Source: Sedimenticola thiotaurini (GTDB lineage: Bacteria; Pseudomonadota; Gammaproteobacteria; Chromatiales; Chromatiaceae). Taken from it: 50,770 nt of DNA. Every line of letters starts with the position of its first letter. Position 1 is the stretch's first letter. The DNA lies in the NCBI GenBank assembly GCA_007713595.1, contig VMRY01000066.1:1-50770 (forward strand), written 5' to 3'. Shown here piece after piece: positions 4,760 to 48,004 of the stretch. Below the pieces are notes generated by a model. The model saw nothing but the letters and a program-made list of their open reading frames with translations. It did not search any database and was not told the DNA's origin. Position numbers and translations under genes: made by a program.

Positions 4760-5179
4760 ATGAGTAACAAACGAAGCCAATCAAGACATCTGGCCGTTCA
4801 GGCTATCTATCAATGGCAGGTGGCTGGGCAGGATATCAAGGATATTCGAAATCAGTTTGTTGCAGATCAGAAGGCCAATAGCTTTGAGCTGGCCTACTTT
4901 GAAGCCCTGCTGCATGGTGTGCCGGCTCATCTGAGTCAACTGGATGAACTGCTGGGACCTTTCCTGGATCGCTCGATTGAGAGCGTCGATCCAGTTGAAC
5001 GGGCAATACTTCGTCTTGGTGCATTCGAACTGCAGTATCAGCTGGAAGTGCCCTACAAGGTGATCATCAATGAGTCGATTGAACTCTCCAAGGTATTTGG
5101 TGCAGAGCAGGGCCACAAGTACGTCAATGGGGTGCTTGATAAGCTGGCGCATAAGCTGCGCAAGTCGGAGATAAAATAA
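4760..5179 (+). CDS. nusB: Transcription antitermination factor NusB
   Basis: All-helical RNA-binding protein that, with NusE/S10, binds boxA in rRNA leaders. The N-terminus SQSRHLAVQAIYQWQ and the C-terminal YKVIINESIELSKVFG and KYVNGVLDKLA segments are typical, as is the length of 139 residues. The ATG begins immediately after the ribH TGA, so it is cotranscribed with ribH. A palindrome 21 bases downstream may end this transcript. Confidence 0.96.
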   Translation: MSNKRSQSRHLAVQAIYQWQVAGQDIKDIRNQFVADQKANSFELAYFEALLHGVPAHLSQLDELLGPFLDRSIESVDPVERAILRLGAFELQYQLEVPYKVIINESIELSKVFGAEQGHKYVNGVLDKLAHKLRKSEIK

Positions 5180-8341: not shown

Positions 8342-8633
8342 TGTCTTAAGTCCTCTGCTACAACGGCGCGCACACGATCCGGCCTACGCAACCAACGAAT
8401 ATATACCATCTGCAATCTACCCTGTTTCAGCTTGGGCGAACACCGGTCATTTACCGGGTTTTCCATTAGCGCCAGGTAATATAAGCAGTCAGGGAGACGG
8501 GATTATGATCGCTGGCCTAGCTCTACGCAAGGTTGGCGTCGTTTTTTGTCATATCAAACGATCCTAAATGCCCTATTAATCAGCTTGTTAGCGTTATTGT
8601 TCTGATTTATTGCAGCTGAGATGCTGGATAAGG

Positions 8634-8656
8634 CATCTCCCCACTCTGGGGAGATG
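8634..8656. repeat. Perfect hairpin in the folE2-hupS control region
   Basis: A 10-bp perfect inverted repeat (CATCTCCCCA, loop CTC, TGGGGAGATG). It lies about 293 bases upstream of folE2 and 262 bases upstream of hupS, with no T-run on either side. It could be a transcription block between the divergent promoters or a regulator site. Function unknown. Confidence 0.45.
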
Positions 8657-8799
8657 GTTGCTATTGCTACCACTTAGCCAAAATCTTCTCGATTACCTTT
8701 AGTCGCTTATGGAATTGAGCTTTCCAATAGGCCGATCAATTCCGTTGGTTATCTAACCATATGTTGCCGTTGATAAAAAATCTTGAACTTCGCAACAAT

Positions 8800-8813
8800 T
8801 TGATATTTATCAG
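8800..8813 (+). promoter_or_regulatory. FNR-type binding site upstream of hupS
   Basis: TTGAT-ATTT-ATCAG matches the FNR consensus TTGAT-N4-ATCAA at 9 of 10 positions. Its centre lies about 44 bases before the predicted sigma-54 transcription start and only 10 bases upstream of the -24 element. A second half-site (TTGAT at 8770-8774) lies 30 bases upstream. The cognate regulator could be the FNR protein encoded at 48854-49597. Binding is inferred from the match. Confidence 0.55.
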
Positions 8814-8823
8814 AAAAAATCCA

Positions 8824-8840
8824 TTGGCATGGCCATTGCA
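8824..8840 (+). promoter_or_regulatory. Sigma-54 (-24/-12) promoter of the hup operon
   Basis: TTGGCATG-GCCA-TTGCA has the invariant GG (8826-8827) and GC (8838-8839) at the required 12-base offset and differs from the TTGGCACG-N4-TTGC consensus at only one position. Transcription would start near 8851, leaving a leader of about 67 bases before the hupS ATG. Sigma-54 control of hupSL by NtrC-family activators (HoxA, HupR, NifA) is established in several proteobacteria; no such activator gene is in this window. The region 8342-8917 holds no convincing gene. Confidence 0.75.
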
Positions 8841-8917
8841 AATCCGGCCTTCAGGATGCGGCGATAACAGAGCAAGAGCCATCGCATCAATCACTGCTGA
8901 ACTGGAGGAGTCGGGTA

Positions 8918-9997
8918 ATGACAGAGACCTTTTATGAAGTAATGCGACGTCAGGGGATCACGCGCCGTAGTTTTTTGAAGTATTGCAGCCTGACGGCATC
9001 AGCCCTGGGACTGGGGCCGGCCTTTGCGCCAACAATAGCGGAGGCGATGGAGACTAAACCACGCATTCCCGTGCTCTGGTTGCACGGTCTGGAGTGTACC
9101 TGCTGTTCGGAGTCCTTTATCCGCTCTGCCCATCCTTTAGCCAAGGATGTGGTGCTGTCGATGATCTCACTGGATTATGACGACACCATTATGGCCGCTG
9201 CCGGTCATGAGGCGGAGGCGATTATTGAAGAGATCATCGAAAAATATGATGGCAACTACATCCTGGCTGTTGAGGGTAATCCGCCGCTGGATGAGGATGG
9301 CATGTACTGCATCATTGGTGGCAAGCCGTTTGTAGAACAGCTGAAAAAGGCCGCAGAACATTGCAAGGCAATCATCTCCTGGGGTTCCTGTGCCTCCTGG
9401 GGTTGCGTGCAGGCGGCCCGTCCAAATCCCACCCGTGCCACGCCGATTCATAAAGTACCCGGGCTGGCGAAGAAGCCGATCATCAAGGTACCGGGTTGTC
9501 CGCCCATCGCTGAGGTGATGACGGCAGTGATCACCTACATCCTCACGTTTGATCGTTTTCCTCAGCTGGATCGACAGGGACGTCCACTGATGTTTTACAG
9601 CCAGCGGATTCACGACAAGTGTTATCGACGCCCCCATTTCGATGCGGGTCAATTTGTTGAGCATTGGGATGATGAGGCGGCGCGTAAGGGTTATTGCCTC
9701 TACAAGATGGGTTGCAAGGGACCCACGACGTACAACGCCTGTTCGACTGTGCGTTGGAACGGGGGACTCTCTTTCCCGATTCAGGCGGGGCATGGCTGTA
9801 TCGGCTGTTCCGAAGACGGTTTCTGGGACAAGGGGAGTTTCTATGACCGGGTAACCGATACCCATCAGTTTGGCATAGAGGCGAATGCGGATGAGGTGGG
9901 CTTGGTAGCCGCTGGCACGGTGGGTGCAGCGGCAGCGGCCCATCTGGCGGTAACAGCAATCAAGCAGGCCCAGAACAAAGGAGAGCAGGATCAATGA
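8918..9997 (+). CDS. hupS: [NiFe]-hydrogenase small subunit, O2-tolerant group 1d type
   Basis: Electron-transfer subunit of the membrane-bound uptake hydrogenase, carrying three Fe-S clusters. The N-terminus has a Tat signal ([10 protein letters not shown], then a hydrophobic stretch ending near AEA), so the folded dimer is exported. The mature part begins with [12 protein letters not shown] and later has WGSCASWGC. The extra cysteines in CTCC and in GSCASWGC are the pair that forms the [4Fe-3S] proximal cluster of O2-tolerant enzymes such as E. coli Hyd-1. A C-terminal membrane anchor (about residues 325-347) follows the distal cluster region. AGGAG lies 10 bases before the ATG. It overlaps hupL by 4 bases. 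Confidence 0.97.
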
Positions 9998-11790
9998 GCA
10001 TGATACAGACGCCAAATGGCTTTTCGCTGGATGATTCAGGTAAACGTGTGGTGGTCGATCCGGTAACCCGAATTGAAGGACACATGCGCTGTGAAGTGAA
10101 TGTGGATGAGAACAACATCATCCGTAACGCGGTTTCAACAGGCACGATGTGGCGGGGACTGGAGGTGATTCTTAGGGGTCGCGATCCCCGTGACGCCTGG
10201 GCCTTCACCCAACGTATCTGTGGTGTCTGTACTGGCACTCATGCATTGACTTCGGTTCGTGCCGTTGAAGATGCGCTGAACATTCAGATTCCGGAGAATG
10301 CCAACTCGATCCGTAACATTATGCAGCTTGCCCTGCAGGCCCACGATCATCTGGTTCACTTCTATCACCTGCATGCCCTGGACTGAGTCAATCCAGTCAA
10401 TGCCCTTAAGGCTGACCCCAAGGCGACATCGGAGCTACAGCAGAAGGTTTCACCCCATCATCCGCTCTCATCCCCCGGCTATTTTCGGGATATTCAGAAT
10501 CGGTTGAAGAAGTTTGTGGAGTCGGGACAGCTGGGCCCATTCAAGAATGGCTACTGGACTAATCCTGCTTATCTATTGCCACCCGAGGCCGATCTGATGG
10601 CGGTGACCCACTATCTGGAGGCGCTCGATTTTCAGAAAGAGATCTCCAAGATCCGGGCAATATTTGGTGGTAAGGATCCCCACCCCAACTGGCTGGTGGG
10701 CGGTGTGCCCTGCGCTATTAATCTGGATGGAATTGGTTCTGTTGGCGGTCTGAATATGGTCAACCTGAATCAGGTCTCCGCCATTATCGATCAGGTTTGT
10801 GACTTCGTGAATAACGTCTATGTACCGGACCTCTTGGCCATTGCGGGTTTCTATAAAGGGTGGACCTATGGGGGCGGGCTCTCCAGCATGAACGTGCTGG
10901 CCTATGGCGATATCCCGGATCGTGCCAATGACTACTCGACAGAGAATCTGATGATGCCCCGCGGTGCAATTATCAACGGTAATCTGAAAGAGGTGCATGA
11001 GGTGGATCTGCGAGATCCAGAGGAGATCCAGGAGTTTGTTCCGCACTCCTGGTACAAGTACCCGGATGAGTCAAAGGGGTTGCACCCCTGGGATGGCATT
11101 ACGGAGGCCAATTTCCAGTTGGGTGAAAATACCAAGGGTACAAAGACCAATATTCGGGAGATCGATGAATCCGCCAAATACTCCTGGATCAAGGCCCCAC
11201 GCTGGCGTGGACATGCCATGGAGGTAGGCCCGCTGTCGCGCTACATCATCGGCTATGCAAAAGGGGATAAGGAGATTACCGAGCAGATCAACTTTGTACT
11301 CAAGACCCTGGATGTCCCGATCACGGCCCTCTTCTCGACGTTAGGGCGTACAGCCGCGCGGGGTTTGGAGGCGCAGTGGGCGGCAGACAAGATGCGCTAT
11401 TTCATGGACAAGATGATGGCCAATATCAAGGCGGGCGACAGCGCCACGGCCAATGTGGATAGCTGGGATCCTGAGACCTGGCCCGCCGAAACCAAGGGTG
11501 TTGGCTTTACCGAGGCACCGCGAGGTGCATTGGGCCACTGGATCCGCATCAAGGATACCCGTATCGCCAACTACCAGTGTGTGGTTCCGACTACCTGGAA
11601 CGGTTCACCGCGGGACCAACAGGGCAATATCGGCGCTTTTGAGGCCTCGCTGATGAATACCAAGGTGGAGCGTCCGGAAGAGCCGGTTGAGATCCTGCGA
11701 ACCCTGCACAGCTTTGATCCCTGTCTCGCCTGCTCGACTCATGTGATGAGTGAGGATGGTCAGGAGCTTGCCAAGGTGAAGGTCCGCTAA
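9994..11790 (+). pseudogene. hupL: [NiFe]-hydrogenase large subunit, interrupted by an in-frame UGA at codon 131
   Basis: Catalytic NiFe subunit that oxidises H2. The frame runs 599 codons from the ATG overlapping hupS to the TAA at 11788, but codon 131 (10384-10386) is TGA. The reading continues in the same frame on both sides: the residues before it end HLHALD, and those after it read [12 protein letters not shown]. coli HyaB has Trp at this point (HALDWVD). Every other landmark is intact: [10 protein letters not shown] near residue 70, and DPCLACSTH followed by a 15-residue tail that the HupD protease removes. Without readthrough only a 130-residue fragment is made; a TTG restart at 10504 would lack the first CxxC pair. 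The cause may be a recent nonsense mutation or a sequence error. Confidence 0.93.
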
Positions 11791-11821
11791 ACGGTCAGGG
11801 TATCTCTAGAGGAGCAATACT

Positions 11822-12505
11822 ATGCAGAGAGAAATCAATTCAGGCGCGGTTTATGTGTATGAAGCCCCGGTCAGGATCTGGCACTGGGTGAATGCGCTTT
11901 CAATAACCCTGCTGGCGATAACCGGTTATCTGGTAGCCAGTCCGTTGCCCAGCATGTCGGGTGAAGCGAGCGATCATTTTCTGATGGGTTATATCCGCTT
12001 TGTTCATTTTGCCGCAGCCTATATTTTTGCGGTTGGCTTTCTGGGTCGAATCTATTGGGCCCTGGTTGGAAATGAACATGCCAGGCAGCTGTTTAAGCTG
12101 CCTGTACATCGGTTGAAGTTCTGGCGGGAGCTGCTGCACGAGGTGCGCTGGTATGCCTTTCTGGAAAAGGAGCCAAAAAAATATGTAGGGCACAACCCAC
12201 TGGCACACCTCTTTATGGTGGTGATTATTACTGTGGGTGGTTTCTGCATGTTGCTGACGGGCTTTGCTCTGTATGCCGAGCAGGTCGGTCAGGGGAGTTG
12301 GCAGGACACGCTGTTTGGCTGGCTGATTCCATTGGTTGGACAGAGTCAGGATGTGCGTCTGTGGCACCACTGGGGTATGTGGGTGATTGTTGTGTTTGTC
12401 ATGCTGCATGTTTATGTGGCGATACGGGAAGACATTGTCTCTCGCCAAAGCATCATCAGCACCATGGTCAGTGGTTGGCGCACCTTTAAGGATGATCGGC
12501 CATGA
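11822..12505 (+). CDS. hupC: Ni/Fe-hydrogenase b-type cytochrome subunit
   Basis: Di-heme membrane cytochrome b that anchors HupSL and passes electrons to the quinone pool. The 227-residue protein has four membrane helices and the expected histidines: RIWHWVN near the N-terminus, RFVHFAAAY, and LWHHWGMW followed by MLHVYVA. An AGAGGAGC ribosome site precedes the ATG. It lies 31 bases after hupL and overlaps hupD by 4 bases. Confidence 0.96.
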   Translation: MQREINSGAVYVYEAPVRIWHWVNALSITLLAITGYLVASPLPSMSGEASDHFLMGYIRFVHFAAAYIFAVGFLGRIYWALVGNEHARQLFKLPVHRLKFWRELLHEVRWYAFLEKEPKKYVGHNPLAHLFMVVIITVGGFCMLLTGFALYAEQVGQGSWQDTLFGWLIPLVGQSQDVRLWHHWGMWVIVVFVMLHVYVAIREDIVSRQSIISTMVSGWRTFKDDRP

Positions 12506-13251
12506 GCAGCAATCGATCTTCAGTTAATGATGTGAACAGGCCTCAACCGAATGTGCTGATCCTGGGCATCGGTAATCTGCTCTGGGCTGATGAAGGGTTT
12601 GGGGTGAGGGCAGTTGAGACCCTCCAGCAGTGGTATCGCTATCCAGAGCATGTGCGGGCTATGGATGGGGGAACCCAGGGTGTCTATCTGGTGCAGGAGG
12701 TGCGCGAGTCTGATCTGTTGATTGTCTTTGATGCCATTGATTATGGCCTACCTCCCGGTACCTTGAAACTGATCGAAGGGGAAGCGGTTCCCAAGTACCT
12801 CGGTGTGAAGAAGGTCAGCCTGCATCAGACAGGTTTTCAGGAGGTGTTGGCGTTGGCTGAGATGCTGGGTGACTACCCGGAAAAGATTTTATTAATCGGC
12901 GTGCAACCCGTTGAGATAGAAGACTTCGGTGGCAGTCTGCGCAGTGAAGTGAAGGCTCAGATTGAGCCGGCTATTGAACAGGCTATCGCCTTTTTGTCTG
13001 CTCATGGTATCTCCGTCAGTCGGAGAACCAGGCCACTGTTGGCGGATCGCCTCAGCTCAGCTATCAGTGACATGACAAGATATGAGCATGAAAGACCCGG
13101 GCCGGAACAGGTCTGTCGATTGGGCGATGAACGGGTGCTCTTATCGGGTGAATATCAGATCGAACATCGTCCGGCTGCGCTGGATGGTTCAGCCATGAGT
13201 GTCGGACTTGATCAGCATCTGAATAAATACCGCACCGATACTCGTGGCTAA
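12502..13251 (+). CDS. hupD: Hydrogenase maturation endopeptidase with long C-terminal tail
   Basis: Nickel-checking protease that removes the C-terminal peptide of HupL once the active site is built. The HyaD/HybD fold is clear: LGIGNLLWADEGFGVRA with the first nickel ligand Glu, VFDAIDYG with Asp and LHQTGFQEVLA with His. The core ends near residue 175; about 70 further residues (RRTRPLLADRL to the stop) have no motif I recognise and make this 249-residue protein longer than the usual 195-210. The start overlaps hupC by ATGA. Confidence 0.94.
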   Translation: MSSNRSSVNDVNRPQPNVLILGIGNLLWADEGFGVRAVETLQQWYRYPEHVRAMDGGTQGVYLVQEVRESDLLIVFDAIDYGLPPGTLKLIEGEAVPKYLGVKKVSLHQTGFQEVLALAEMLGDYPEKILLIGVQPVEIEDFGGSLRSEVKAQIEPAIEQAIAFLSAHGISVSRRTRPLLADRLSSAISDMTRYEHERPGPEQVCRLGDERVLLSGEYQIEHRPAALDGSAMSVGLDQHLNKYRTDTRG

Positions 13252-13283
13252 ACGCAATTGATCGATCGAATTGAAGGAGTGAA

Positions 13284-13715
13284 ATGATGTCCTCAGAACT
13301 GATCAGACAGATGATCGAGCAAAACAGTTATCCGGTATTGACTGAGTCAACGCTCGAAGCTTTTCTTAAACTAAATGAGCATTCCGTACTGTTTTTTACC
13401 GAAGATCCAAAACAGTATCCGGAGAGCAATGATGTGGCCGTTATCCTGCCTGAATTGGCTACCTATTTTAAAGGCCGGTTTCAGGTGGCGGTGATTGATC
13501 GTGAGGTGGAGCATCGGCTGCACCGACGTTTTCCTTTTGATAGTTGGCCTGCGCTGGTTTTTATGCAGCGAGGAAACTATCTGGGTGCAATTACACGTGT
13601 TCAGGATTGGGTCGACTATCTGCGGGAGATTGAGCGATTGCTGAATGCTGCTCCGTTGCATATACGGGATGTGGGTTTTCCTATTGTCCCAAGTTTAGCT
13701 GCTGCTCCCCAGTAG
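13284..13715 (+). CDS. hupG: HyaE/HupG-type hydrogenase accessory protein (thioredoxin-like)
   Basis: Thioredoxin-fold protein without the CxxC redox motif, known as a chaperone that holds the Tat-bearing small subunit until it is mature. The fold shows in SVLFFTEDPKQYPE, a beta-alpha block ending VAVIDREVEHRLHRRF, and SWPALVFMQRGNYLG with the cis-Pro position. Two adjacent ATGs (13284, 13287) follow GAAGGAGTG; the second has the better spacing. Confidence 0.88.
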   Translation: MMSSELIRQMIEQNSYPVLTESTLEAFLKLNEHSVLFFTEDPKQYPESNDVAVILPELATYFKGRFQVAVIDREVEHRLHRRFPFDSWPALVFMQRGNYLGAITRVQDWVDYLREIERLLNAAPLHIRDVGFPIVPSLAAAPQ

Positions 13716-13745
13716 TTCATCAGAAAAATCGCCAGGAGGTGCGCA

Positions 13746-14606
13746 ATGAACTTCTATGAAATACCCGCCAAAACAGTAGGTGCAGGAACCCAGCCCACAG
13801 AGGCAGATGGGGCCGTATTGGATTATCAGGAGATGCCGGATGAGATGACCACATTTACCATGCCCATCATTCCAGAACCTGAAGCAGTAGAGGGGTTGGA
13901 TATGGCGATCTCCTTGTTAGCGCGGGTGCAGAGTGCGATCGCGAACTACCAGCAGGGTGCGCAGGAGGAAGTTTTTGACCTCACCTTTATGGATGGCGCT
14001 AATCTTGCGCTAATCGACCAGATTCTTGGTGAGGGTGAGGTGAGTGTGGTGTTCAGTCGCACACTGCAGGCCAGGATTCAGGAATCGGTTATGGCAGGGA
14101 TCTGGCGGGTGCGTTATCAGGATGGGATAGGCAGGACATATAAAGACACATTAGAGGTTGGCGAGATGCCCGGCCTGATCAAAGATGCGACATTTGTCGG
14201 GGCCGTTGAAGCCATAGATTTGCCGGATTCACCACTGCCGGAAGGTGTGTTAAACGCACCACCATTAATTGCTGAGCTGAACGAGAAGTCGCAGGCCTAT
14301 GCGTCAGGTATTCCAGCCCATGTAATCAATCTGACGCTACTGCCGCAGACGGAGCAGGATCTGGAATTTTTAGATCAGCTGTTGGGCAAGGGGGCAGTGA
14401 CCATATTGTCTCGCGGCTATGGTAATTGCCGCATCACCAGCACAGGGATGCAAAATGTTTGGTGGGTACAGTATTTCAACTCACAGGATATGAATATCCT
14501 CAATACCTTGGAAGTGACCGATGTGCCGGCCGTTGCCTGTGCTGCCCCGGAAGACCTCAAGGACAGTGCTGATCGTCTGAAAGAGATCCTGGAAGTGTAC
14601 CAGTGA
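13746..14606 (+). CDS. hupH: HyaF/HupH hydrogenase expression/maturation protein
   Basis: HupH family protein needed for uptake hydrogenase maturation, probably for small-subunit assembly. The 286-residue sequence contains two similar halves. The first has FMDGANLALIDQILGEGEVSVVFS and the second FLDQLLGKGAVTILSRGYGNC, each followed by a W-x-V-x-Y block (WRVRYQD and WWVQYFNS), which is the internal duplication of this family. A strong AGGAGG lies just before the ATG. It overlaps the rubredoxin gene by 4 bases. Confidence 0.93.
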   Translation: MNFYEIPAKTVGAGTQPTEADGAVLDYQEMPDEMTTFTMPIIPEPEAVEGLDMAISLLARVQSAIANYQQGAQEEVFDLTFMDGANLALIDQILGEGEVSVVFSRTLQARIQESVMAGIWRVRYQDGIGRTYKDTLEVGEMPGLIKDATFVGAVEAIDLPDSPLPEGVLNAPPLIAELNEKSQAYASGIPAHVINLTLLPQTEQDLEFLDQLLGKGAVTILSRGYGNCRITSTGMQNVWWVQYFNSQDMNILNTLEVTDVPAVACAAPEDLKDSADRLKEILEVYQ

Positions 14607-14818
14607 GCAGCGCGTTTTTTTCGGGTTCGTATGGTGGCAGTGCAGATAAGCTGACGGATGATGCTCGGCTTGAATGCAAGATCTGCTGGCACGTTTATGA
14701 CCCGGCAGAGGGTGATTCCTACTGGCAGATACCACCCGGTACACCGTTCTCTAAACTGCCGGATAATTGGAGTTGCCCCAATTGCGATGGCCGTAAGAAT
14801 GATTTTATGGTGTTGTGA
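14603..14818 (+). CDS. hupI: Rubredoxin of the hydrogenase cluster
   Basis: Small Fe(Cys)4 electron carrier, 71 residues. Both iron-binding knuckles are present: ECKICWHVYDP and SCPNCDGRK. The aromatic core (WHVYDP, YWQIPPGTPF, LPDNWSCP) is typical. In aerobic uptake hydrogenase operons this rubredoxin is linked to protecting or maturing HupS in the presence of O2. The start is a GTG within the hupH stop (GTGA overlap), which supports coupled translation. Confidence 0.93.
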   Translation: MSSAFFSGSYGGSADKLTDDARLECKICWHVYDPAEGDSYWQIPPGTPFSKLPDNWSCPNCDGRKNDFMVL

Positions 14819-15417
14819 TGAATCAATCTGACCTGAAAAAAGTAGTCGATGATCTGGAAGCGGTATTCAGTTTGATCGAGCAGCAACGCATGGTGGATGT
14901 GCCCATATTAAACAGTGCACTTCGGGTAAAGGCAGTGGGTTTCATAGCCTGGGATAATGGTTTCCTGGGGGTGCTGATTACCCCCTGGTTTATGAACCTG
15001 ATGTTTCTGGGTCTGTTAAATGAAGGGGAAAGTGACGCCCGGTTGCCAGGTGAGAAGGTGATGCGAGTTTTTCCATCAGGTGCCTATGAGTTTATCGTGG
15101 GAGAAGAGCCGGGGATCGGTTGTTACCAAGCCTGCTCGCTGTTTTCACCGATGCAGCAATTTCATTCACAAGCACTTGCAGAGGAGACGGCTGAAGCGAT
15201 CATGCAGGGGCTTATGCAAGCCGAGAATCGCTCAGAGATCACTACCCACAGTCGTGAGATTGAACAAGCCTGGTATGGCGAGACAGATGAGGCTCAGGAT
15301 AAAACGGCAGAGCGGGATGAGTCGGATAAGGATTTGCCTTCACTGTCGGAACGTCTGGACACGCCACTGAGTCGCCGTGAACTGCTGACAGGTCTGTTTG
15401 CAGAAAAGAGAGAATAA
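14818..15417 (+). CDS. hupJ: HupJ / HybE-family hydrogenase assembly chaperone
   Basis: [NiFe]-hydrogenase assembly chaperone of the HybE family. The recognisable core spans residues 18-125: NSALRVKAVGFIAWDNGFLGVLITPWFMNLM, then PSGAYEFIVGEEPGIGCYQACSLFSPM. The C-terminal 70 residues are acidic and end with LSRRELLTGLF, a short motif of unknown role. The ATG shares one base with the rubredoxin stop. It is the last gene of the operon, ending 1 base before the convergent ispA stop. hupE, hupF and hupK homologues are not present in this cluster. Confidence 0.88.
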   Translation: MNQSDLKKVVDDLEAVFSLIEQQRMVDVPILNSALRVKAVGFIAWDNGFLGVLITPWFMNLMFLGLLNEGESDARLPGEKVMRVFPSGAYEFIVGEEPGIGCYQACSLFSPMQQFHSQALAEETAEAIMQGLMQAENRSEITTHSREIEQAWYGETDEAQDKTAERDESDKDLPSLSERLDTPLSRRELLTGLFAEKRE

Positions 15418-36851: not shown

Positions 36852-37598
36852 ATGGCTGGACACAGTAAATGGGCCAATATTAAACATAAGAAAGCGGCCA
36901 ATGATAAGAAACGGGGTAAGATCTGGACCAAGTTGCTACGCGAGGTTACGGTTGCAGCAAAGGCCGGTGGCGGTGAAATAGAAACCAACCCGCGACTGCG
37001 GTTGGCGGTAGATAAGGCGAACGGTGCCAATGTCCCCCGTGATACAATCGAACGCGCTGTAAAACGTGGCGCTGGGGGCGAGGATACGGATAACTACGAT
37101 GAGTTGCGCTATGAGGGTTATGGCCCAGGTGGTGCAGCGGTTATTGTCGATTGTATGACTGACAATCGTAACCGCACCGCATCTGAAGTTCGTCACGCCT
37201 TCACGAAGCACGGCGGAAATCTGGGAACGGATGGTTCGGTAGCCTACATGTTCAGTAAGCAGGGGATTATCAGTTTCGCCCCTGGCGCTGACGAAGATGC
37301 GATTATCGAAGCGGCCTTGGAAGCGGGTGCCGAAGATGTGGTGACGAATGACGATGGCTCGATTGATATTACCACGGCACCTGAAGATTTCTCCGATGTG
37401 AATGCAGCGATTCTGGCTGCGGGACTCTCCCCTGATAATGCCGAAGTGACCTTCAGCGCATCGACCAGGGCTGAACTGGATCGGGAATCAGCTGAGACCA
37501 TGCTTAAAATGATCGATCTACTGGAAGATCTGGATGACGTGCAAGATGTCTACACGAATGCAGATATCTCGGATGAGATCATGGATGCCATTGGCTGA
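36852..37598 (+). CDS. yebC: YebC/PmpR family transcription/translation regulator
   Basis: TACO1/YebC family protein of 248 residues with the invariant N-terminus [18 protein letters not shown], then [21 protein letters not shown] and [10 protein letters not shown]. The family is described both as a DNA-binding regulator and, more recently, as helping ribosomes through proline-rich stretches. It is the usual gene before ruvC. A small AGGCG/CGCCT hairpin followed by TTTT lies at 37607-37622 between the two. Confidence 0.96.
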
Positions 37599-37636
37599 AA
37601 TGGCCTAGGCGTAGCGCCTTTTACCAAACAGGATCA

Positions 37637-38200
37637 ATTATCAACGCCACGAATCATAAGCTCACCAAGTCAGGAAGCCATCATACCCAAAGGCGTATTC
37701 TGGGAATTGACCCTGGGTCTCGTATTACCGGGTATGGCATTATCGATAGTGATGGCAGTCGAAGCAGTCATATAGCTAGTGGCTGCATTCGTATTGCGGA
37801 TGAAGCCTTTCCCCAGCGTCTGGGTGAGATCTTTAGCCAGCTTACCGTGCTGGTTAACGAGTACCAGCCGACCGAGATGGCGATTGAGCAGGTTTTCATG
37901 GCAAAAAATCCCGCTTCGGCCCTGAAGTTAGGGCAAGCGCGGGGGGCTGCTATTTGTGCCTGTGTCGTGGCTGGATTGCCGGTATTTGAGTATGCACCCA
38001 GAGCAATCAAGCAGGCCGTGGTCGGGACGGGTAGTGCCGATAAGGATCAGGTGCAACATATGATTAAGCATATTCTGCAACTGGAAGAGCGGTTGTCACC
38101 CGATCAGTCCGATGCACTGGCAGTGGCTATCAGTCACGCCCATGCCAACAGCATATTGCAGTTACTTTCCCGCTCTAACAAGGGGGGGTGGGGACGATGA
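37637..38200 (+). CDS. ruvC: Crossover junction endodeoxyribonuclease RuvC (start codon non-canonical)
   Basis: Holliday-junction resolvase. The catalytic residues are present: Asp in ILGIDPGSRITGYG, Glu in MAIEQVFMAKN, and the two Asp in SPDQSDALAVAISH. The frame is open from the stop at 37574, but has no ATG, GTG or TTG before GTG 37847, which would remove the first catalytic Asp. An AGGA at 37630-37633 stands in front of ATT (37637) and ATC (37640); a second AAAGG stands in front of ATT 37697, right at the conserved region. I placed the start at ATT 37637, giving 187 residues. The gene overlaps ruvA by 4 bases. Confidence 0.88.
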   Translation: MINATNHKLTKSGSHHTQRRILGIDPGSRITGYGIIDSDGSRSSHIASGCIRIADEAFPQRLGEIFSQLTVLVNEYQPTEMAIEQVFMAKNPASALKLGQARGAAICACVVAGLPVFEYAPRAIKQAVVGTGSADKDQVQHMIKHILQLEERLSPDQSDALAVAISHAHANSILQLLSRSNKGGWGR

Positions 38201-46795: not shown

Positions 46796-48004
46796 ATGAA
46801 TCTTGAAATCACCACTCAGGTGATGCTGTGGGGCGGTGGACTGGCTTTTATCCTGGGTGCCGTCGCTAATAAAACCAATTTTTGTACCATGGGTGCTGTC
46901 TCTGACTGGGTCAATATGGGTGACACTGGCAGGATGCGTGCCTGGTTTCTGGCCGTGGCGGTTGCGATAATCGGTGTCTCTCTATTTGAGGTGATGTCCG
47001 TTCTTGATACCTCAACCTCCCGCGTACCCTATCGTAGCAGTGTCTTCTTTTGGCCCCGCTATCTGCTGGGTGGAGTGATGTTCGGTGTTGGTATGACCCT
47101 GGCATCCGGCTGTGGAAATAAAAATCTTATTCGCATCGGGGGTGGAAATCTGAAGTCCATCTTTGTGGTGCTGGTCGCGGGTGCCATGGCCTACGTCATG
47201 ACGCGCACAGATTTCTACGGTGTGGTCTTTCATAGCTGGATGTTGCCCATCAGTCCTAATCTGGCAGCGATCAATATCCCTGATCAGTCGATTGGGAGCC
47301 TGGTAGGTGCACTCGTTGGTGCGGAGTCCCCGGCTTCCCTGAATCTCTATTTCGGACTTGGATTATCGATCTTGCTGCTGGTGGTGATTTTTCGCTCCAA
47401 GGATTTCCGGACCAGCCTGGATCTGGTAATGGGTGGTCTGGTAGTAGGCTTGGTAGTGCTGGGTGGTTGGTATATCACCGGTGGTCCCATGGGAGTTGCC
47501 TGGATGGAAGCGGTAGAGTTTATGGATACCCCCCCGCCGAGCACAGGTACCCAGTCTTACACCTTTATTAACCCAATGGGCGAGGCGTTAACCTATCTCG
47601 CCAGCCCAGGGAAGTTCAGCCTGATAACTTTTGGTGTGGCTGCTCTGTTTGGCGTAATACTTGGATCGTTTACTTATGCATTGGTGAGTCGCAGTTTCAG
47701 AATAGAGTGGTTTGTTAATCTGTCCGATTTTATCAGGCACATGATTGGCGCAGTACTGATGGGCATCGGTGGTGTATTGGCGATGGGTTGTACCATTGGC
47801 CAGGGCGTAACGGGTGTTTCGACCTTGGCAGTAGGTTCTTTCATGGCGATGGGCGCAATAATTCTGGGTAGCGCGTTGACCATGAAGGTACAGTACTACA
47901 AGCTTGTCTATGAGGAGGAGGCCAGCTTCAGTAAGGCGCTACTCACAGGTCTGGTGGATCTCAAGTTGCTCCCGGAGAGTTTAAGAAAACTGGAAGCTGT
48001 ATGA
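46796..48004 (+). CDS. YeeE/YedE family (TsuA-like) sulfur-compound transporter
   Basis: A polytopic membrane protein of 402 residues with about nine to ten hydrophobic segments. It has the family's cysteine motifs: NKTNFCTMGAVSDW near residue 28, TLASGCGNKNL near 103 and AMGCTIGQGVTG near 325. Characterised TsuA imports thiosulfate through relays between such cysteines. The role here (thiosulfate or related sulfur uptake) follows from the family. A GGGAGG site precedes the ATG, and a TATAAT lies at 46744-46749 without a clear -35. Confidence 0.88.
   Translation: MNLEITTQVMLWGGGLAFILGAVANKTNFCTMGAVSDWVNMGDTGRMRAWFLAVAVAIIGVSLFEVMSVLDTSTSRVPYRSSVFFWPRYLLGGVMFGVGMTLASGCGNKNLIRIGGGNLKSIFVVLVAGAMAYVMTRTDFYGVVFHSWMLPISPNLAAINIPDQSIGSLVGALVGAESPASLNLYFGLGLSILLLVVIFRSKDFRTSLDLVMGGLVVGLVVLGGWYITGGPMGVAWMEAVEFMDTPPPSTGTQSYTFINPMGEALTYLASPGKFSLITFGVAALFGVILGSFTYALVSRSFRIEWFVNLSDFIRHMIGAVLMGIGGVLAMGCTIGQGVTGVSTLAVGSFMAMGAIILGSALTMKVQYYKLVYEEEASFSKALLTGLVDLKLLPESLRKLEAV

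Follow-up and report, generated by a model that had tools for sequence, protein, structure and literature searches.

The group 1d membrane-bound hydrogenases (MBH), such as E. coli Hyd-1, the R. eutropha MBH and the Hydrogenovibrio MBH, are encoded in a row of genes for a large and a small subunit, a b-type cytochrome, a protease and accessory proteins. Two extra proximal-cluster cysteines of the small subunit are the mark of the O2-tolerant enzymes, and the NiFe centre is held by four cysteines that lie in the motifs RICGVC and DPCLAC of the large subunit. In another type of hydrogenase, the NiFeSe selenoproteins, a UGA codon lies within the large-subunit frame itself, and selenocysteine takes the place of the C-terminal metal-ligand cysteine.

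In this work, we describe a hup operon whose large-subunit frame is likewise interrupted by a UGA codon. The operon lies in a stretch of 50,770 nucleotides from the marine bacterium Sedimenticola thiotaurini, the whole of which is called the window below. The relevant features are as follows:

8918..9997, forward strand: hupS, the small subunit with a Tat signal and two motifs shared with R. eutropha HoxK, ECTCCSES and GSCASWGC
9994..11790, forward strand: hupL, the NiFe hydrogenase large subunit (HyaB/HupL/HoxG type), with one interruption; identified by PF00374, PRK10170 and solved relatives
9994..10386, forward strand: first open piece of hupL, 130 amino acids, with the N-terminal motif RICGVC (10213-10230)
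10384..10386, forward strand: in-frame TGA, codon 131, where relatives have TGG (Trp); identified by reading of the frame and comparison of relatives
10387..11790, forward strand: second open piece of hupL, 467 codons, with the C-terminal motif DPCLAC (11716-11733) followed by CSTH
10597..10599, forward strand: codon 202, the first in-frame ATG past the stop, with GAGG a few bases upstream
11822..12505, forward strand: hupC, the b-type cytochrome subunit, open
12502..13251, forward strand: hupD, the maturation endopeptidase, open
13284..13715, forward strand: HyaE-like operon protein, open; its score of 45 bits falls short of the HyaE cut-off (210)
13746..14606, forward strand: HupH-type expression protein, open
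14815..15417, forward strand: HybE-type assembly chaperone, open

This gene row is the same as in the enzymes named above, and we take the layout to be that of group 1d, the O2-tolerant membrane-bound hydrogenases. The small subunit has the cysteine pattern of HoxK: in a residue-by-residue alignment of the two proteins, both hupS motifs agree and the two extra proximal-cluster cysteines are present. When the hupL stop is read through, both RICGVC and DPCLAC of the HyaB/HoxG-type large subunit are found. The other hup genes had been described as intact in an earlier reading made from the DNA alone (the sequence-only reading), and hupC, hupD and the genes for the HyaE-like, HupH-type and HybE-type proteins are indeed all open. 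The locus differs from the group 1d operons in one respect: the large-subunit frame is uninterrupted there, whereas here it contains a stop at codon 131.

The interrupted hupL frame and its relatives

The TGA at 10384-10386 on the forward strand is codon 131 of the hupL frame (9994-11790), which is otherwise open to the TAA at 11788-11790 and comprises 598 positions and the final stop. A scan of the whole frame detected no second lesion. The claim that an in-frame TGA splits an otherwise intact hupL of 599 codons is therefore borne out. The read-through protein matches PF00374 above the cut-off from residue 54 to 583. Its best NCBIfam model is PRK10170 (HyaB type), which covers residues 3-598 with 907.6 bits, a score that falls under the equivalog cut-off of 1101. 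Together, the two pieces of hupL cover positions 1-77 and 79-508 of the 508 positions of PF00374, so the sole absent position is that of the stop itself. A single stop separates two open pieces, of 130 and 467 codons, that show homology over their full length, and such an arrangement is not due to chance. The closest solved relatives of HupL are the large subunits of Hyd-1/MBH enzymes, and the two solved relatives for which alignments were printed, 4c3o and 3ayx, both have Trp at this site in a like context.

The nearest relative is Sedimenticola selenatireducens BK-1 (97% identity in HupL), followed by two S. hydrogenitrophicus strains (93%), S. selenatireducens DSM 17993 (92%) and Thiodiazotropha symbionts (88%). 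Codon 131 is TGG in all five full-length congeneric orthologues and in one orthologue from another genus of the same family. The C-terminal part of HupL is also 97% identical in a further congener (G008), whose assembly is without the N-terminal part of hupL and does not cover codon 131. In the wider set, 113 loci were searched and all gave a match, and all except L037 span codon 131. The resulting 112 rows comprise both orthologues and paralogues, including two paralogues from the window's own genome, and some rows depend on each other (L043 and L102, for example, come from one contig). Of the 112 rows, 111 have TGG, and the remaining one, a distant paralogue with 31% identity (L035), has TTT (Phe).

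This comparison with related genomes had been asked for in the sequence-only reading as a check, and its outcome agrees with what was proposed there: the flanks of codon 131 align without a gap, HyaB-type proteins have Trp at the site, and a single change from a Trp codon to a stop (G to A) accounts for the difference. A search of genome_contigs for a stop at this site, using one restricted degenerate pattern and possibly excluding the genome itself, gave no match. As far as can be seen from these sequences, the stop at codon 131 appears to be private to the genome of the window.

Single nonsense codons do occur elsewhere in hupL, in 3 of 80 loci of other genomes. The frame is otherwise full-length in each case: the Solemya velesiana gill symbiont (L096) has TAG at codon 290, L103 has TAA at 163, and L149 has TAG at 160. 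In L149 the hupS match is flagged too, and two of the three records carry a MAG label. In the same screen of the neighbouring genes, the numbers of flagged loci among those with a match were 1/80 for hupS, 0/76 for hupC, 1/63 for hupD, 0/52 for the HyaE-like gene, 0/49 for HupH and 0/47 for the HybE-type gene. The three nonsense loci suggest that this isoenzyme may occasionally disappear. Note that the counts are too small to show an excess in hupL or to surpass what is expected from sequence errors.

Age of the stop and quality of the assembly

In comparison with the nearest congener, hupL has a dN of 0.018 and a dS of 0.86, and the resulting dN/dS of 0.021 rules out an old pseudogene. When the amino-acid changes are polarised by a third species, 7 fall on the branch of the window's genome, 8 on the sister branch, and 3 are unassigned. 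Given such strong selection and the lack of excess change on the branch, any loss must be very recent, as the sequence-only reading had supposed. If all 7 changes are assumed to have occurred after inactivation, they correspond to ~0.005 changes per non-synonymous site (taking a rough figure of ~1361 such sites), compared with some 0.43 synonymous changes per site over the whole branch. Inactivation would then be confined to approximately the final 1% of the branch. This bound is rough, given the high dS and the assumption that half of it belongs to the branch.

The genome consists of 3.86 Mb in 162 contigs, the window being contig 53, and has a listed completeness of 99.98% and a contamination of 0.72%. 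Open reading frames (ORFs) were compared with those of the nearest congener over ~440 kb in total, consisting of the window from about 7.5 kb onward, which is the part spanned by the congener contig, and 400 kb of another contig as a control. In the window, 41 ORFs were matched, of which 38 are intact, 2 flagged and 1 partial; the two flags concern hupL itself and hupC, the latter through an over-extended 5' end. In the control, 290 of the 349 ORFs were matched (at least 65%), and these were classified as intact (260), stop-flagged (17), frameshift-like (1) or partial but unflagged (12). Inspection of the 17 flags revealed 15 over-extended 5' ends, one ORF opposite a conserved frame (n224), and one short ORF whose coding nature is doubtful (n306). 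The frameshift-like case is a 5' extension; ten of the partial matches lack only an N-terminal stretch, and the other two are short N-terminal matches only. In the reverse direction, 290 ORFs were matched, with 271 intact, 10 flagged, 2 frameshift-like and 7 partial. Nine of these ten flags are over-extended starts, and the tenth is again of doubtful coding nature (n309); of the frameshift-like cases, one is a 5' extension and the other (n144) was matched only over its C-terminal part and has possibly decayed in the congener. In another comparison, many short or antisense ORFs of five relatives were also listed with stops. Among the 41 matched ORFs of the window and the 290 of the control, there is no clear mid-gene stop other than that of hupL.

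Since hupL has the sole clear mid-gene stop over ~440 kb, a generally poor assembly is unlikely, and we rejected it as an explanation. The genic error rate looks low on the same grounds, and that hupL stands out among otherwise clean genes favours a real mutation. A single wrong base or a strain mixture is still compatible with these data. In that case, the stop would be a consensus error, or a minority variant if the assembly is metagenomic, and the living strain would have an intact hupL. Several observations fit such an error: the stop is known from one assembly in many contigs, with one genome per species; it was found in that genome only, the restricted pattern search included; and hupL has not decayed further, which would look the same after a single base error or in a strain mixture. 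The high listed completeness, the low contamination and the absence of any clear stop or frameshift among the control ORFs or the other ORFs of the window speak against it. On balance, we consider an erroneous base unlikely, although the idea keeps appreciable weight.

Decoding of UGA

The genome contains release factor RF2 above the cut-off, and TGA ends five other genes of the window, namely glyA, nrdR, ribH, hupS and hupC (the names glyA and nrdR come from reading of the translations and from the sequence-only reading rather than from a family search). It had been stated that glyA, nrdR and nusB use UGA as an ordinary stop; this is correct for the first two, but nusB (4760-5179) ends with TAA. 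The exclusion of a code change stands in any case, since UGA is a normal stop in the window and RF2 is present. The RF2 search also gave two weaker matches with an internal stop. Both end naturally: one is RF1, whose frame is open throughout, and the other is short, RF-like and, by our own reading of the sequence, presumably ArfB-like.

SelB reaches 97.6 bits in this genome, below the cut-off of 242, and none of the nine genomes of the genus has a SelB above the cut-off. ARAGORN readings of all 48 tRNA places (RF00005 matches) gave a single tRNA-Trp (CCA) and no UCA anticodon. The nearest congener and two other genomes have the same tRNA-Trp, with no difference over 76 bases. As read by eye from the sequence, it retains G24 and a 5-bp anticodon stem; the changes linked to UGA reading in PMC13092985 are G24A, A9C and a 4-bp anticodon stem. 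No unusual RNA fold was detected 3' of the stop (z-scores of -0.29, 1.45 and 0.18), the single Rfam match within 8500-14700 (E 4.8) is under the gathering score, and neither the fold nor the Rfam scans found a SECIS-like stem-loop directly after the UGA. With RF2 present, SelB below the cut-off, no UCA anticodon, a tRNA-Trp identical to that of the congener, and ordinary folds, neither selenocysteine, nor a code change, nor a tRNA suppressor is supported. A suppressor of the UCA-anticodon or G24A type was rejected on the tRNA evidence, and a code change on that of RF2 and of the genes terminated by UGA.

Insertion of selenocysteine deserves mention because NiFeSe hydrogenases exist and occur among the distant solved relatives of HupL. 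The UGA of those selenoproteins is at the C-terminal metal ligand, whereas the UGA of hupL is at a site where relatives have Trp, not Cys, and lacks both a SECIS-like fold and a SelB above the cut-off. Selenocysteine was therefore rejected, and we regard it, together with a change of the genetic code, as scarcely credible. Useful readthrough, in which the ordinary tRNA-Trp would decode UGA as Trp and provide low but sufficient amounts of full-length HupL, appears improbable. It would be in keeping with the background UGA readthrough by the endogenous tRNA-Trp(CCA) of E. coli, as described in PMC13092985, with the Trp of the relatives at codon 131, and with the conservation of the remaining gene. 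The leaky UGA context, however, is +4C according to PMC5289835, and the base after the hupL UGA is G. The unaltered tRNA-Trp and the ordinary downstream fold also count against readthrough, and the absence of the stop from all relatives gives no hint that it has been selected. Even less probable is a UGA kept as a leaky switch for low expression, where Trp would be restored at a low rate to give little HupL while H2 would mainly be oxidised via other hydrogenases. Of the two escapes named in the sequence-only reading, suppression of the stop and a wrong base, the former has lost ground, as has the latter in the form of a poor assembly; a single wrong base has not.

Two other genes of the window were also noted. 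In ruvC (37574-38200, forward strand), the conserved N-terminus RRILGIDPG is preceded by an in-frame stop (37574), and the codons in between include none of ATG, GTG and TTG; a candidate start lies at 37640-37642. Among nine Sedimenticola genomes, five have no canonical start for ruvC; in three the only one is a TTG located four codons upstream, and in one an ATG stands just before. All nine have ATC exactly 17 codons upstream, and this ATC could be a non-canonical start. A canonical start is present near or upstream in all of the 21 other genomes compared, and our literature search found no report of a ruvC with an AUU start codon. The other gene (46796-48004) encodes a YeeE/YedE-type membrane protein that resembles the thiosulfate transporter TsuA and the selenium-linked YedE, and that reaches the cut-off of none of the four models listed.

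Proposed loss of HupL and comparison with known systems

The explanation that we prefer, with a probability of roughly 0.7, is a very recent nonsense mutation that would have converted a Trp codon of hupL into UGA and produced a near-null allele of a dispensable isoenzyme. In doing so, we infer a correct base, loss of the protein and compensation by other enzymes. After such a mutation in this Sedimenticola strain, translation of HupL would stop after 130 residues. The N-terminal piece has one metal-binding cysteine pair (RICGVC, residues 74-79, before the stop) and the part after the stop has the other (DPCLAC, residues 575-580). Since the pairs are split across the stop, neither piece alone could hold the NiFe centre. 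A restart, if used, would most likely begin at the ATG of codon 202, and its product would be without RICGVC. The product of hupL would be null or nearly null, save for a low natural misreading of UGA that would restore Trp; misreading of this kind by ordinary tRNA-Trp is not known to exceed a few per cent.

Oxidation of H2 could be carried on by the other hydrogenases of the genome. An open Hyb-type operon is found on contig 44, and contig 136 contains another open large subunit; as no more than 352 bases of the contig precede this gene, its small subunit is not visible. HypD is open as well, and with these genes H2 oxidation by other enzymes remains possible. In practice, annotation of the O2-tolerant hydrogenase in this genome should record the interruption, and the presence of the operon is no ground for inferring H2 uptake under air. 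In the literature, we found no report joining an in-frame stop codon with a hydrogenase large subunit, nor one joining uptake hydrogenase, pseudogene and nonsense mutation.

Basically, the hupL stop looks like an ordinary, very recent inactivation or, with lower probability, a sequence error, and not like a novel reading of the genetic code. A recent pseudogene is marked by a stop that is absent from the orthologues of sister species and by little further decay or relaxation of selection, and both are observed in hupL. When compared with recent bacterial pseudogenes that have a single nonsense codon, the locus shares with them the one stop, the conserved frame, the open neighbouring genes and the intact copies in sister species, and it differs from them in no notable respect.
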